Below, in pieces: positions 17,135 through 22,160 of a stretch of DNA of 32,137 nucleotides. The translations under genes and the position numbers were made by a program. Numbering within the stretch: the first letter of the stretch is position 1; the number at the start of each line of letters is the position of its first letter. Source of the DNA: an uncultured Holophagaceae bacterium (GTDB lineage: Bacteria > Acidobacteriota > Holophagae > Holophagales > Holophagaceae); assembly GCA_903868115.1 (NCBI GenBank), contig CAIPUA010000345.1:1-32137 (forward strand), given 5' to 3'. The notes below the pieces were generated by a model. The model had not been told where the DNA came from. It did no database searches and worked only from the letters and a program-made list of their open reading frames with translations.

Positions 17135-19474
17135 GTGGGATCTCGGCTCCCGGTCACCCTCAAGGCCGCTCCAGGGGCGGCGAGGGCTCTGTTCCTCTCG
17201 GTAGCCACCTGTCTCCTATGCGCCCAGGGGCTCCCCGGGATCCCGGGCAAGTTCCCGTACACTGAGGCCCCATCGGTTCCCGAACTCCTGCCTCTTCGTC
17301 CCTTCCTGTTCGAGGAGGGGGCGGGCGAGGGCCGGACCCTGCGCTGGCGCGGGGAGTTGGTGCAGGAAAGTGACGATGTCTGGATCATCGAGAAGGGTGC
17401 TATCCAGTCCGATGATCTGCTCCTGCTGGCTGACCGCATTACTTACGAACCCAGGACGGGCATGCTGGAGGCCTTGGGAAGAATCCGGCTCGAAGGCCCT
17501 GACCTGAGGCTCCGTTGTGAACGCCTGCGAATGGACTGGAAGAACAGGATTGGCGACGCCTGGGCGCTTGAACTGGAAGTGCCGCCGAGTTGGACACTCC
17601 GCTCCAGCCATGTGGCCTTCACTACACTGAAGTCTTGGGATTTCGAATCGGTCGAAATCAGTCCGTGCCCGCAGGAAGCCCCAGGCTGGTCCGCCAAGCT
17701 CTCCCGAATGAAGCTCGAGTTTGAGGGCTTCGCAACCTTCCGGAATGCCCGGGTGCTGGTGGCAGGTGTGCCGGTCCTCTACCTACCCTGGGCCGCCTAT
17801 CCCGCGAAAGCCCAGCGCAGTTCCGGGCTGCTTCCGTTCCAGATCGGCTTTTCGAGTAGCCTTGGCACGATGATCGGCCTCTCCTATTACCAGGTGCTTG
17901 GGAACACCATGGACGCGACTTTCACTCCGGACTTCTACAGCCGCGAAGGTGTGCTGTGGGGAGGGGAATTTCGATGGAACCCAGAGTTGACGCACAACGG
18001 AAGTTTTCAGGGCCAGTACATCAAGCAGCACACCAATGATGAGACCCGCTACCGTTACAGGGTTCAGGAACTCTGGCAACGGGAGGATGGCTGGCAGTTC
18101 ACAGCGGACCTAAACCAAGCCTCGGATTCGCTCGTGGAATCAGACTACGGACGGGCCGTGGGGGGGCTTGGCACCACCTCCTTCGATAGCGCCGTCTTTC
18201 TTGGAAAAAACTTTCCCTGGGCCTCGGTGAGTCTCTCCTCCGCCGAACAGCGGAGCTTCTTCCTGCCCGAAGATACCTCGTTTTACCGCACGGATTTCCC
18301 GACTTCGCTCCGCCGCCAGTCCTTTCCGCAACTGCAGGCAAGACTGTATCCGATCCCCTTCGGGGACTTCTACCTCGATGGAGGTGCGAAACTCAGTCGC
18401 CTTGCCTATCGCCTGGACCTGGGGGATGCCCAGAGCGACACAGCCTTCTCCTGGCTGCGCAACGACTGGTCCGCAAGGATGCATGGGCGCTTGGGTCAGT
18501 GGGGGCCCTTCCGGGTGGATCTTCAGGTGGCTGCGCGCTACACGCTTTATAGCGCTTCGCTCAAGGAATCCGTTTTCGATGCGACAGGCACAACCAACGA
18601 CGAGGTCCTGGACCCTGCCTCGAATAGTTCCTTTGATCCCTTCCGGGTAGATGGCCAGGCGGTGCAAAGGCTTATGGGCTCGAGCCGGCTCCAGTTCTCT
18701 GGGCCTCAACTCGGGCGCACCTTTGAAAAGATCGCTCTCCTTGGCTATTCCGGGGACATCAAGCATGTGATGGAGCCTTTCGTAGCCTTCACCAAGAACA
18801 GTCGTTCCTCCAAGGCAGGCAACCTGCCACGCTTCGATGAGGTGGATTCCCGACCGGGTGTGGGCGGTAGCGCCGACGGCGAGCAGAGTATCGAGATCGG
18901 CTTGAAGCAGCACTTGCTGGGTCGGCCCGGGCGGGGCAGCGATTTTTCGGATCTCGTGAGGTGGCGCATTTCCACCCGCTACCAATCTAAGCCCATCCTA
19001 CTTTCCGACGGCCGCTTCAAGCGCGGATGGGCCTCGCTGGACAACGATATCGACGTAGAACCCAATGACCGGATCCGCCTGAGTTTCAGGAGATCCTCCG
19101 AGATTGGTTCGGCCAGCGCCGACAACTCGCTTTCGGCCGAATACACATCTCTCCAGGGAAATCGGTTCAACTTCGCCTTCTTCTCCACAGGAATAAATCG
19201 CTTCCTGGTCCGCCAACAGGGCATCCAGACCGGAGGAATACAGCGGTTCTTCGACGACCGCTGGCGCCTGGAGTTCCAGGCCAACTATGACCTCCGGCTC
19301 AAGGGCTTTTCGTTCAGCCAAGTCGCACTTGCCTATCTGACGCCCTGCGTGGCCACGCGCCTGCGCTTCAGCCATGTAGCCATCCCGGTGGCCGGCGCCC
19401 TCAACAGGGAGGATCGTCTGGACCTAGTGTTCAACCTCCGAGGACTTGGGGACCTCCTCAGCCTACGGCAGTGA
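17135..19474 (+). CDS. lptD: LPS-assembly outer-membrane protein LptD
   Basis: N-terminal OstA-like region (DDLLLLADRITYEPRTGMLEALGRIRLEGPDLRLRCERLRMD), VPVLYLPWAAYPAKAQRSSGLLPFQIGFSSSLGTMIGLSYYQVLG, long beta-barrel region. Starts 9 bp after the RNase E/G stop. Confidence 0.93.
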   Translation: MGSRLPVTLKAAPGAARALFLSVATCLLCAQGLPGIPGKFPYTEAPSVPELLPLRPFLFEEGAGEGRTLRWRGELVQESDDVWIIEKGAIQSDDLLLLADRITYEPRTGMLEALGRIRLEGPDLRLRCERLRMDWKNRIGDAWALELEVPPSWTLRSSHVAFTTLKSWDFESVEISPCPQEAPGWSAKLSRMKLEFEGFATFRNARVLVAGVPVLYLPWAAYPAKAQRSSGLLPFQIGFSSSLGTMIGLSYYQVLGNTMDATFTPDFYSREGVLWGGEFRWNPELTHNGSFQGQYIKQHTNDETRYRYRVQELWQREDGWQFTADLNQASDSLVESDYGRAVGGLGTTSFDSAVFLGKNFPWASVSLSSAEQRSFFLPEDTSFYRTDFPTSLRRQSFPQLQARLYPIPFGDFYLDGGAKLSRLAYRLDLGDAQSDTAFSWLRNDWSARMHGRLGQWGPFRVDLQVAARYTLYSASLKESVFDATGTTNDEVLDPASNSSFDPFRVDGQAVQRLMGSSRLQFSGPQLGRTFEKIALLGYSGDIKHVMEPFVAFTKNSRSSKAGNLPRFDEVDSRPGVGGSADGEQSIEIGLKQHLLGRPGRGSDFSDLVRWRISTRYQSKPILLSDGRFKRGWASLDNDIDVEPNDRIRLSFRRSSEIGSASADNSLSAEYTSLQGNRFNFAFFSTGINRFLVRQQGIQTGGIQRFFDDRWRLEFQANYDLRLKGFSFSQVALAYLTPCVATRLRFSHVAIPVAGALNREDRLDLVFNLRGLGDLLSLRQ

Positions 19475-20824
19475 CTGATCGGTGGAATCGGGTAACACTT
19501 CGATCCGGTTGCGCCCCTTGTGCTTGGCCGCATAGAGAGACTGGTCCACGGCGCCAAAAAGAGAAATGGGGCTGTGCCCCTTCGGTCCACCCACGCCGAA
19601 GCTCATCGTTGGGAAGACGGTCTGGCCTGACTCCAGCACGATGGGGTTCTCGTCGATCCTCCGCCTGAGCTTCTCTGCCACATCGGCCCCGGCCTGGAGA
19701 GTGGTCTCCATCAGGAGGATCGCGAATTCCTCACCACCGATGCGGAAGGCCAAATCGGATCTTCGAATTGCGCACCGCATGCTCTCTGCCAGAGATCGGA
19801 GAACCTCGTCGCCCACTAGGTGCCCGAAGCGGTCGTTGATCAGCTTGAAGTAGTCCAGATCTCCTATTACCAGCACGAAGGCGCGCCGATGGCGTTCCCA
19901 TTGGTTGAACGCGTTCTCGAGGTTCTGATCGAAGGCCCGGCGGTTGAGGAGCCCCGTAAGTGGATCTGTCAGAACCTCGTTCCGGAGAGCGGCTGCCTCC
20001 ATCTCAAGCATGAGTCGACGCTCGCGAAGATCACTGATCTGGAACTTGAATTCCTGCTGAATCCGCGTGGCATGCATCCATTCCAAACCCCTACGGCAGG
20101 CGTGGAGCAGACGGGGTGGGGAGAGCGGAAGGGTCAGCCAGTCCATGGCTCCAGCCAGGAGCAGCGTCCGCTGGAGGGCCTGACGCGGGGCTTTGCCGAG
20201 AAGGATGACATAGGGAGCCGACTCGTGCTCCCGCATAGCCTGAAGCGCAGCCAGGGTCCGGCCACCCGTGGCATCCACGCCGAGCAGCAGGACGGGCGCC
20301 TTGAGTTGCCGCTGAACCTCCGGGAGATCCTTGAGGGAAGCCGTGGTCAAGTCATAGCCGAAGTGATCCACAAGGCTCTGGATCCGACGCGCGAGTTCGA
20401 TGCGCAGGCCAACGGCGAGGAACGGAACCATCGGGCAACTTTCACGCATGCCGTCCGCATCCACCGCCGGGCCCAGGCTGTTCAGAAGGCGCTGGAGGCT
20501 ATCGCCCGCCAGGATGTAGCCATCCACGTCGGTGGCGTGGATCCTGGGTAGTTCCTCCTCCATGGGAGGCCCGTCGAAGATGAGGAAGATGGGGAGATTC
20601 TGGAAGAGGGCCCGAGATTCTCTCCGGAGCAGCGTACAGAAGCGGATGCCATCCAGGGGATCCCCGACGGCATCCACCAGAATGAGCTGGGTTTGGCTCC
20701 AGGCCTCGGACGCGAGGGCGTCTAAATGATCCTGGACATGCAGAACCCGGTTGCCCGCCCCCTCAAAGGCAGTTCGCAAACGCTCCACTAAGTCAGCGTG
20801 CTTCGTGATGGCCAGGATATTCAT
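19463..20824 (-). CDS. GGDEF diguanylate cyclase with N-terminal degenerate receiver-like regions
   Basis: LTDPLTGLLNRRAFDQNLENAF, GDLDYFKLINDRFGHLVGDEVL, RRSDLAFRIGGEEF (active site plus RxxD I-site), SLYAAKHKGRN. ATG at 20824 (MNILAITKHADLVERL) preferred; the ORF-track extension to 21154 reads through the repeat element. Confidence 0.92.
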   Translation of the reverse strand: MNILAITKHADLVERLRTAFEGAGNRVLHVQDHLDALASEAWSQTQLILVDAVGDPLDGIRFCTLLRRESRALFQNLPIFLIFDGPPMEEELPRIHATDVDGYILAGDSLQRLLNSLGPAVDADGMRESCPMVPFLAVGLRIELARRIQSLVDHFGYDLTTASLKDLPEVQRQLKAPVLLLGVDATGGRTLAALQAMREHESAPYVILLGKAPRQALQRTLLLAGAMDWLTLPLSPPRLLHACRRGLEWMHATRIQQEFKFQISDLRERRLMLEMEAAALRNEVLTDPLTGLLNRRAFDQNLENAFNQWERHRRAFVLVIGDLDYFKLINDRFGHLVGDEVLRSLAESMRCAIRRSDLAFRIGGEEFAILLMETTLQAGADVAEKLRRRIDENPIVLESGQTVFPTMSFGVGGPKGHSPISLFGAVDQSLYAAKHKGRNRIEVLPDSTDQSLP

Positions 20825-20914
20825 GGGGAATCGAGAATCGAAAAAGCCTAGGGAGGAGCAGGATAACCGGAAGAGGTGGGCATGGAAGGCGTGATCGTTA
20901 GACAGCGCCTTAGT

Positions 20915-21179
20915 GGCTGTCACGAAATAACTATAGTGATTGTGCAGGGCGCCGGGCAAGCCTGGGTAGGAGATGGCCCGCAGGCATGGTGGTTCCCCGT
21001 CAAGGGCCATCGACAACACCAGGCGCCGCCCGCCGCCCAGCACCCGTAGGGCTGGTGGCCATCCGCGCGCCCGACTGCGTCGACCGGCTCGAAGGATGTC
21101 CCGCATCCCCCCTCGCCGCTCTCCTTGTCGGATCACGCGGCTGACTACCAGCAATCATCATAGTTATTCCGTGACAGCC
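20915..21179. mobile_element. ~265-bp MITE-like element with 28-bp imperfect terminal inverted repeats
   Basis: Left TIR 20915-20942 GGCTGTCACGAAATAACTATAGTGATTG; right 21152-21179 CAATCATCATAGTTATTCCGTGACAGCC; 25/28 complementarity. Flanks CCTTA (20908-20912) and CCTTA (21180-21184). No recognisable transposase inside. Confidence 0.75.
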
Positions 21180-21185
21180 CCTTAA

Positions 21186-22160
21186 TTACTCAGTGAACCC
21201 CTGTTCCCCTAGCCAGCGCTCAGCGTCGATAGCGGCCATGCATCCGCTACCGGCGGCCGTGATGGCCTGCCGATAAACATGGTCCTGCACATCACCACAG
21301 GCGAACACCCCGGGGATACCCGTTCGGCTCGATCCCTTTTCGACCGCAAGGTAACCCTTCTCATCCAGGGCGAGTTGTCCCTGGAACAGGTCGGTGTTGG
21401 GTTTATGCCCGATGGCGAGGAAAAGGCCGTCCACGGGCAGTTCTGAAAAATTTCCATCCACGGTGTCTTGCAATCTTAGGGCGCGGATCTTCTCCACTTT
21501 GTCGCCCATGGGCGTCTCGACCGTGGCGGTCAGGATGTCCTCCACCACCTTGTTCCAGCAGAAGGCTATTTTCTCGTTCCTTGTGGCCCGCTCCTGCATC
21601 GCCTTGGAGGCCCGCAGCTTGTCACGGCGATGAATGAGATTCACCTTGGAGGCGAACTTCGTGAGGTAGACAGCCTCTTCCAGAGCCGTGTCGCCTCCTC
21701 CCACCACGGCGATCTCCTTCCCTCGAAAAAAGAATCCATCACAGGTGGCACAGGCGGAAACCCCACCACCGCTGCGCGACAGCGCCTCGTCCTTGCCGAT
21801 ACCCATCCATTTCGCAGAGGCCCCGGTGGCGATGATCACAGAATCGCTGGTGTACTCGCCCTGGTCGGTAGCGATACGAAAGGGGCGCTGTTGAAGGTCC
21901 ACCTGCACCACGGTTTCGCTCTTGATGACCGTGCCGAAGCGGAGTACCTGATGACGCATCTCGTCCATCAATTCGGGCCCAATCACCCCGTCCTTGAAGC
22001 CAGGAAAATTTTCGACCTCGGTGGTCATGGTTAGCTGTCCACCCGGTTGGGCACCCTCGAAGATCACGGGGAAAAGGTTGGCGCGGGACGTGTAGACCGC
22101 AGCCGTGTAGCCCGCAGGTCCGGTCCCGATGATGATGACCTTGTGATGGGAGATAGGCAT
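21186..22160 (-). CDS. trxB: Thioredoxin-disulfide reductase
   Basis: KVIIIGTGPAGYTAAVYTSRANLFPVIFEGAQPGGQLTMTTEVENFPGF, CATCDGFFFRGKEIAVVGGGDTALEEAVYL, GVFACGDVQDHVYRQAITAAGSGCMAAIDAERWL. ATG at 22160. Confidence 0.98.
   Translation of the reverse strand: MPISHHKVIIIGTGPAGYTAAVYTSRANLFPVIFEGAQPGGQLTMTTEVENFPGFKDGVIGPELMDEMRHQVLRFGTVIKSETVVQVDLQQRPFRIATDQGEYTSDSVIIATGASAKWMGIGKDEALSRSGGGVSACATCDGFFFRGKEIAVVGGGDTALEEAVYLTKFASKVNLIHRRDKLRASKAMQERATRNEKIAFCWNKVVEDILTATVETPMGDKVEKIRALRLQDTVDGNFSELPVDGLFLAIGHKPNTDLFQGQLALDEKGYLAVEKGSSRTGIPGVFACGDVQDHVYRQAITAAGSGCMAAIDAERWLGEQGFTE

Follow-up and report, generated by a model that had tools for sequence, protein, structure and literature searches.

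The window, a 32,137-nucleotide stretch of DNA from an uncultured Holophagaceae bacterium, carries a thioredoxin reductase gene (trxB) and a gene with a GGDEF domain, both on the reverse strand, and between them lies a 269-bp element bounded by terminal inverted repeats (TIRs; Table 1). An inverted-repeat search found a single repeat, 20912-20942 with 21152-21182, in which 27 of 31 nt (87%) are complementary and whose arms stand 209 nt apart. The TIRs proposed in the initial annotation are therefore real, at 31 nt and 27/31 rather than the 28 nt and 25/28 given there, and its figure of about 209 bp between the arms is borne out. The element itself, first placed at 20915-21179 with a length of about 265 bp, is present with refined limits, and covariance model R1, run against the window, matches it at 20912-21182 (246 bits, E 1e-71). 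As had also been proposed, the interior lacks a transposase, the ORF listing holding no credible ORF in the 269 bp; a 563-aa ORF drawn across the element was rejected as a read-through, the GGDEF orthologue in G003 starting with MNLLAITK, similar to MNILAITK here. The 5-bp target duplication CCTTA suggested for the two flanks does not hold, because the right-hand CC ends the right arm (CGTGACAGCCCC followed directly by TTA), and the direct repeat is TTA, of 3 bp. A single base pair separates the end of the right-hand TTA from the trxB stop codon. On the other side, the segment adjoining the element reads, on the reverse strand, TAAGGCGCTGTC-TAACGAT and is similar to a sister element's end, CTAAGGCGCTGTCACGGAATAACGAT (G001/G003), minus 6 bases; by this likeness, it is probably the trace of another insertion or excision.

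Table 1. Features of the trxB-GGDEF locus (window coordinates).
Feature	Position	Strand	Evidence
GGDEF-domain gene, downstream neighbour	19463..20824	-	ORF; syntenic homologues in G003, G015, G005
Probable second-TIR remnant adjoining the element	20893..20912	-	suggested by comparison with L047
Left TTA, probable 3-bp target duplication	20910..20912		sequence; same pattern at TIR-only copies C359, C41
Mobile element (probably MITE-type), 269 bp, 65% GC	20913..21181		inverted repeat; model R1 match; absent from the trxB-GGDEF gap of relatives
Left TIR (fast-changing arm = outer ~19 bp)	20913..20942	+	inverted-repeat search
Core branch I (consensus-structure helices 3-9)	20942..21043		covarying pairs; coordinates from alignment A1
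Core branch II (helices 11-14)	21051..21152		covarying pairs; coordinates from alignment A1
Right TIR	21152..21181	-	inverted-repeat search
Right TTA, probable 3-bp target duplication	21182..21184		sequence; same pattern at TIR-only copies C359, C41
trxB (thioredoxin reductase), upstream neighbour	21186..22160	-	ORF; homologues in relatives

The host genome (assembly G000, 419 contigs) holds the ~20-bp TIR at several positions and, for the reversed pattern used as a control, gave 0 matches. On contigs C359 and C41, it forms 42-bp palindromes consisting of the TIRs only, with a common central junction and flanked by TTA/TTA and TAA/TAA, respectively; a degenerate copy with the same TIR lies on C195 and a half-site on C197. 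The latter, TAAGGGGCTGTCACGAAACAA (L014 1501-1524), is a single TIR-like half-site starting where a polA-like gene has its stop codon. Short versions with different TIR types (L341, L342, L338, and L337) comprise TIR-only ones of 42, 42, and 23 bp and one of 72 bp, and would be minimal units that have transposed or else products of deletion. The search for other copies that the initial annotation had called for thus found the same TIR in the host and, as full copies, in two genomes of the same genus (G001 and G003), with relatives of the element across much of the taxonomic family. In more distant genera, the matches are mainly to the interior (query positions 38-232 of 274), and the ends are quite different. 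Among 80 genomes, the covariance model matched 39, namely 37 of 49 from the same taxonomic family, the host among them, and two, weakly, in f2; E-values reached down to 1e-80, and the relatives are ~270 bp long. By full count, G041 has ~23 loci, G043 has 18, and G006 has 9; as the element is nearly a palindrome, many loci gave a match on each strand. In the weak f2 matches (L311 in G061, L312 in G055), the sequence is another long hairpin, ending in GGGTCCAGTCCGGGGACTGAATCCGG, that may belong to an unrelated repeat family; because they look like a different hairpin, they were left out. TIRs are common to copies within subfamilies (e.g., GGGTCTGTTTTCAAA) and not family-wide; it is the core that is family-wide. 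The element had no match in Rfam at or above any family's gathering score, plasmids and phages held no match to the family, and viral contigs yielded four exact 18-mers with no model match past the 18-mer.

Some copies from different genera carry extra hairpin insertions inside the core at recurring positions (L074, L058, and L081; L057, L096, L097, L111, L112, and L115), with sequences such as CCTCCACCTTACGCC...GGAGGTGGAG, TTCTCGTTATCGCC...GATAACGAG, and CCCTCTGCCCGGCG...CAGGCCCC.... The copy at L308 (G024:C1:211720-211989) has flanks that are themselves palindromic, ACAGTAGTGCTA on the left and TAGCACTACTGT on the right, and L324 in the same genome has one of its two flanks in common with it. 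Several stop codons lie at an insertion edge, and copies often stand beside stop codons.

Empty sites between trxB and the GGDEF gene, a further check named at the outset, exist: the two genes are adjacent, ~90 bp apart, and free of the element in G003, G015, and G005, with synteny kept. For five other copies, the flanks were joined and searched in 25 genomes of genus g4, many of which align right across the junction. The L209 site can be read at the base level, the occupied form being ATTA-element-TAAC and the empty one ATTAGC, so that TA is duplicated relative to the empty site; L216, L237, and L258 give compatible pictures, and L219 is blurred by divergence. For four copies outside the window, the orthologous sites of sister species are thus empty, and these sites, together with the element-free trxB-GGDEF gap in relatives, establish that the family is mobile. 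The counter-case framed in advance, that no other copies exist and that the element is a conserved part of the trxB-GGDEF gap, is untrue in both halves, and the original MITE-like reading holds in kind, given the other copies and the empty sites.

The sites of insertion differ with the type of end. An A stands on the left in 82 of 87 copies and a T on the right in 78 of 87. Copies with GGG or GGAG ends lie between YTA and TAR in 22 of 49 cases, 15 of these being CTA and TAG, an arrangement seen in 0 of 40 GAG-ended copies. The GAG-ended copies instead lie between YTNA and TNAR; in 22 of 40, TNA stands on each side, and the window copy uses this TNA form of target. The same N in both TNAs of GAG-ended copies (10 versus 5.9 expected, p 0.044) and identical TNAs over all copies (11 versus 7, p 0.06) are weakly above chance. 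YTAR has been described as the IS5 target, with 2-bp repeats in the IS427 group (PMC10359306, PMC3281130), and IS5-type ISs (PF13340) that reside within this bacterial family resemble the elements at their ends and show both target patterns. One such IS, 1.5 kb long and lying in CTAG in G017, adjoins an element (CTAG-IS-CTAG-element-CTAG); in G026, a GAG-ended IS lies between TTA and TCA. That two end and target patterns are common to the elements and to resident IS5-type ISs suggests that different IS5-superfamily transposases moved one core. The IS in G017 (L157 1395-2920; G017:C1:138959-140464) seemingly has an accessory ORF beside its transposase, and this ORF may be GxxExxY-like. A full-length IS with the same ends, which the initial annotation had proposed to look for, was not found among relatives: an autonomous partner was sought with the TIR pattern in 80 relatives, with GGGNCTGTTTTCAAA in five g4 genomes, and through PF13340 and PF01609 transposases, and no IS with identical ends emerged. 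The ISs found in this search, in which genomes were incomplete and sampling limited, have similar outer bases and ends that otherwise differ from those of the elements, and seven g4 genomes, several of them copy-rich, gave no DDE_Tnp_1 match.

The core is strongly folded. The strand of the element folds far better than its shuffles as RNA (z -7.6), and as DNA both strands do so (z -5.2 for one and -9.5 for the other). The consensus from 30 aligned copies consists of a stem at the termini and two large arms, both branched, with 81 pairs, 67 of which show compensatory changes. Over 87 distinct copies, 97.1% of cells pair, versus 71.8% in shuffled and ~40% in slid alignments, values that lean toward the model because the alignment was fitted to it, with both controls far off; 75 of the 81 pairs have double changes, and the covariation score is 0.645 versus 0.175. 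A functional RNA tolerates G-U pairs but not A-C mismatches. Counts of the two are about equal among the elements, at 121 and 99 (arms, 22 versus 18; core, 99 versus 81), compared with 24 and 0 in 14 tRNAs from the same loci (Fisher p 2.5e-6), a control that is indicative because the set is small and ARAGORN itself picks paired stems. As G-U shows no excess over A-C, the pairing looks maintained as DNA and not as RNA, and the simplest reading is that a cruciform or a single-strand hairpin is under selection or that template switching occurs between the arms.

Against this core, the ends change quickly and in concert. Where cores are at least 97% identical, per-base differences are 0.109 in the arms, 0.027 in the unpaired core, and 0.013 in the core stems, a rate of divergence in the outer ~19-bp arms that is 4-8 times that of the core. 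For this comparison, copies starting with AGAG and GAG were set in the same register. Among the changed pairs in such copies, 36 in the arms are two-sided and 32 one-sided, versus 1 and 35 in the core stems, counts that are descriptive because the copies are related and the pairs not independent; core stems reach 72% two-sided changes only at large divergence, as in normal compensatory evolution. L237 and L250, with 98% identical cores, end in AGAGGTCGTAACAAAACCC and AGAACGCCAAGCCAAGCCC, and L213 and L216 (core 98%) provide a further example of end divergence. In G024, copies with GGAGCCTGTCTACGTAAT and GAGGGTGTTTTAGAAATA ends have the same inner stem and belong to one well-supported core clade. 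Along the core tree, a crude end-class label switches at least 14 times, a count that exceeds the true number of switches because some changes are one-base class ambiguities. We speculate, well short of favoring the idea, that a change in one arm, or its replacement, is rewritten into the partner arm by way of the hairpin that the element forms, or whenever it transposes, and that the element thereby shifts its transposase specificity while a conserved DNA cruciform core persists. If so, the ends would be the most variable part of this mobile element, reversing the usual rule. A search of the literature on Geothrix repeats and MITEs found no description of the family. What we describe is a large repeat family, mainly of the Holophaga bacterial family as far as tested and not found in the literature, which is unusual in its conserved folded core and its quickly and jointly changing ends.

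We therefore interpret the element, with a probability of roughly 0.84, as a non-autonomous MITE-type transposable element, one copy of this large family. IS5-superfamily transposases, working in trans on its outer ~17-20 bp, would place the element in YTAR-type targets (GGG/GGAG ends) or YTNAR-type targets (GAG ends). The core lineage would have switched ends repeatedly, one non-autonomous family having ridden several transposases. Pairing would matter, or be kept, at the level of DNA, as a cruciform, as a single-strand hairpin, or through arm-to-arm template-switch copying in the palindrome, a process by which the two ends might change jointly. The explanation requires no host function. Several points weigh against it: the search yielded no autonomous IS with identical ends, several copy-rich g4 genomes gave no DDE_Tnp_1 match, the TNA identity is only weakly above chance, and the GC content is 65-72%, whereas typical MITEs are AT-rich.

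Pairing kept over the whole length of the DNA, with arms free in sequence and not in pairing, might also be expected of structure-specific recombination of a folded single strand, by analogy with integron attC sites or HUH/RAYT palindromes, the arms drifting and the pairing alone being read. The fixed outer G[AG]G, the recurring arm families, the targets tied to end type, and the IS5-like ends point instead to a DDE transposase that reads sequence, and we regard such recombination as improbable. Still less credible is a dispersed structured noncoding RNA, or an RNA regulator or terminator, whose transcript is under selection and whose TIR-like flanking stems arose by chance. Such an RNA would account for the strong fold and covariation and for the frequent position beside stop codons, but G-U pairs show no excess over A-C mismatches, unlike in the tRNAs, the model matches both strands of one locus, Rfam offers no counterpart, and the empty sites are clean, with target-type flanks. 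That the core is a separate unit inserting at the tip of short palindromes already in place, the 42-bp ones of the host for example, so that arms vary between copies because they are target sequence, would suit the existence of TIR-only palindromes and the agreement of cores whose arms differ, but it is mostly refuted, since arm types recur at many sites in several genomes and the empty orthologous sites lack any palindrome, which indicates that arms and core arrive together.

A conserved core with ends that change fast and jointly opens to testing the old question of how non-autonomous elements outlive their transposases, and the numerous copies in each genome, which diverge by degrees, form a data set to separate selection on DNA structure from arm-to-arm copying in a palindrome. 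A practical use is the annotation of a large repeat family, so far unnamed, in genomes of the Holophaga family. Among known systems, ERIC (enterobacterial repetitive intergenic consensus) is an imperfect palindrome with TA duplication, and we know of no end switching with a conserved core in it. Compared by architecture, it resembles the present element in being dispersed, intergenic, and noncoding, and one review terms it a MITE, but at 127 bp, it is shorter and belongs to other bacteria. REP and REPIN sequences, the RAYT-associated palindromes, are likewise dispersed non-autonomous hairpin DNA, although REPs are 20-40 bp long according to one account (PMC3733652), as opposed to the 270 bp, TIRs, and probable target duplications found here. 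Chunjie of Geobacter uraniireducens, as described in a review, is a MITE of 178-235 bp with tens of copies, mostly intergenic; compared by description, its TIRs are conserved, whereas those of the present family differ between copies. The IS5-superfamily MITEs of the IS5 and IS427 groups share the IS5-like outer bases, the YTAR TA-type target, and the lack of a transposase, and the present family departs from them in its conserved and folded core, variable ends, high GC content, and the failure to find an identically ended IS. MITEs are normally defined by conserved ends around a disposable middle. Here, the relation is reversed: the middle is conserved and folded, with compensatory change of the DNA type, and the ends change fast and jointly, with different target preferences.
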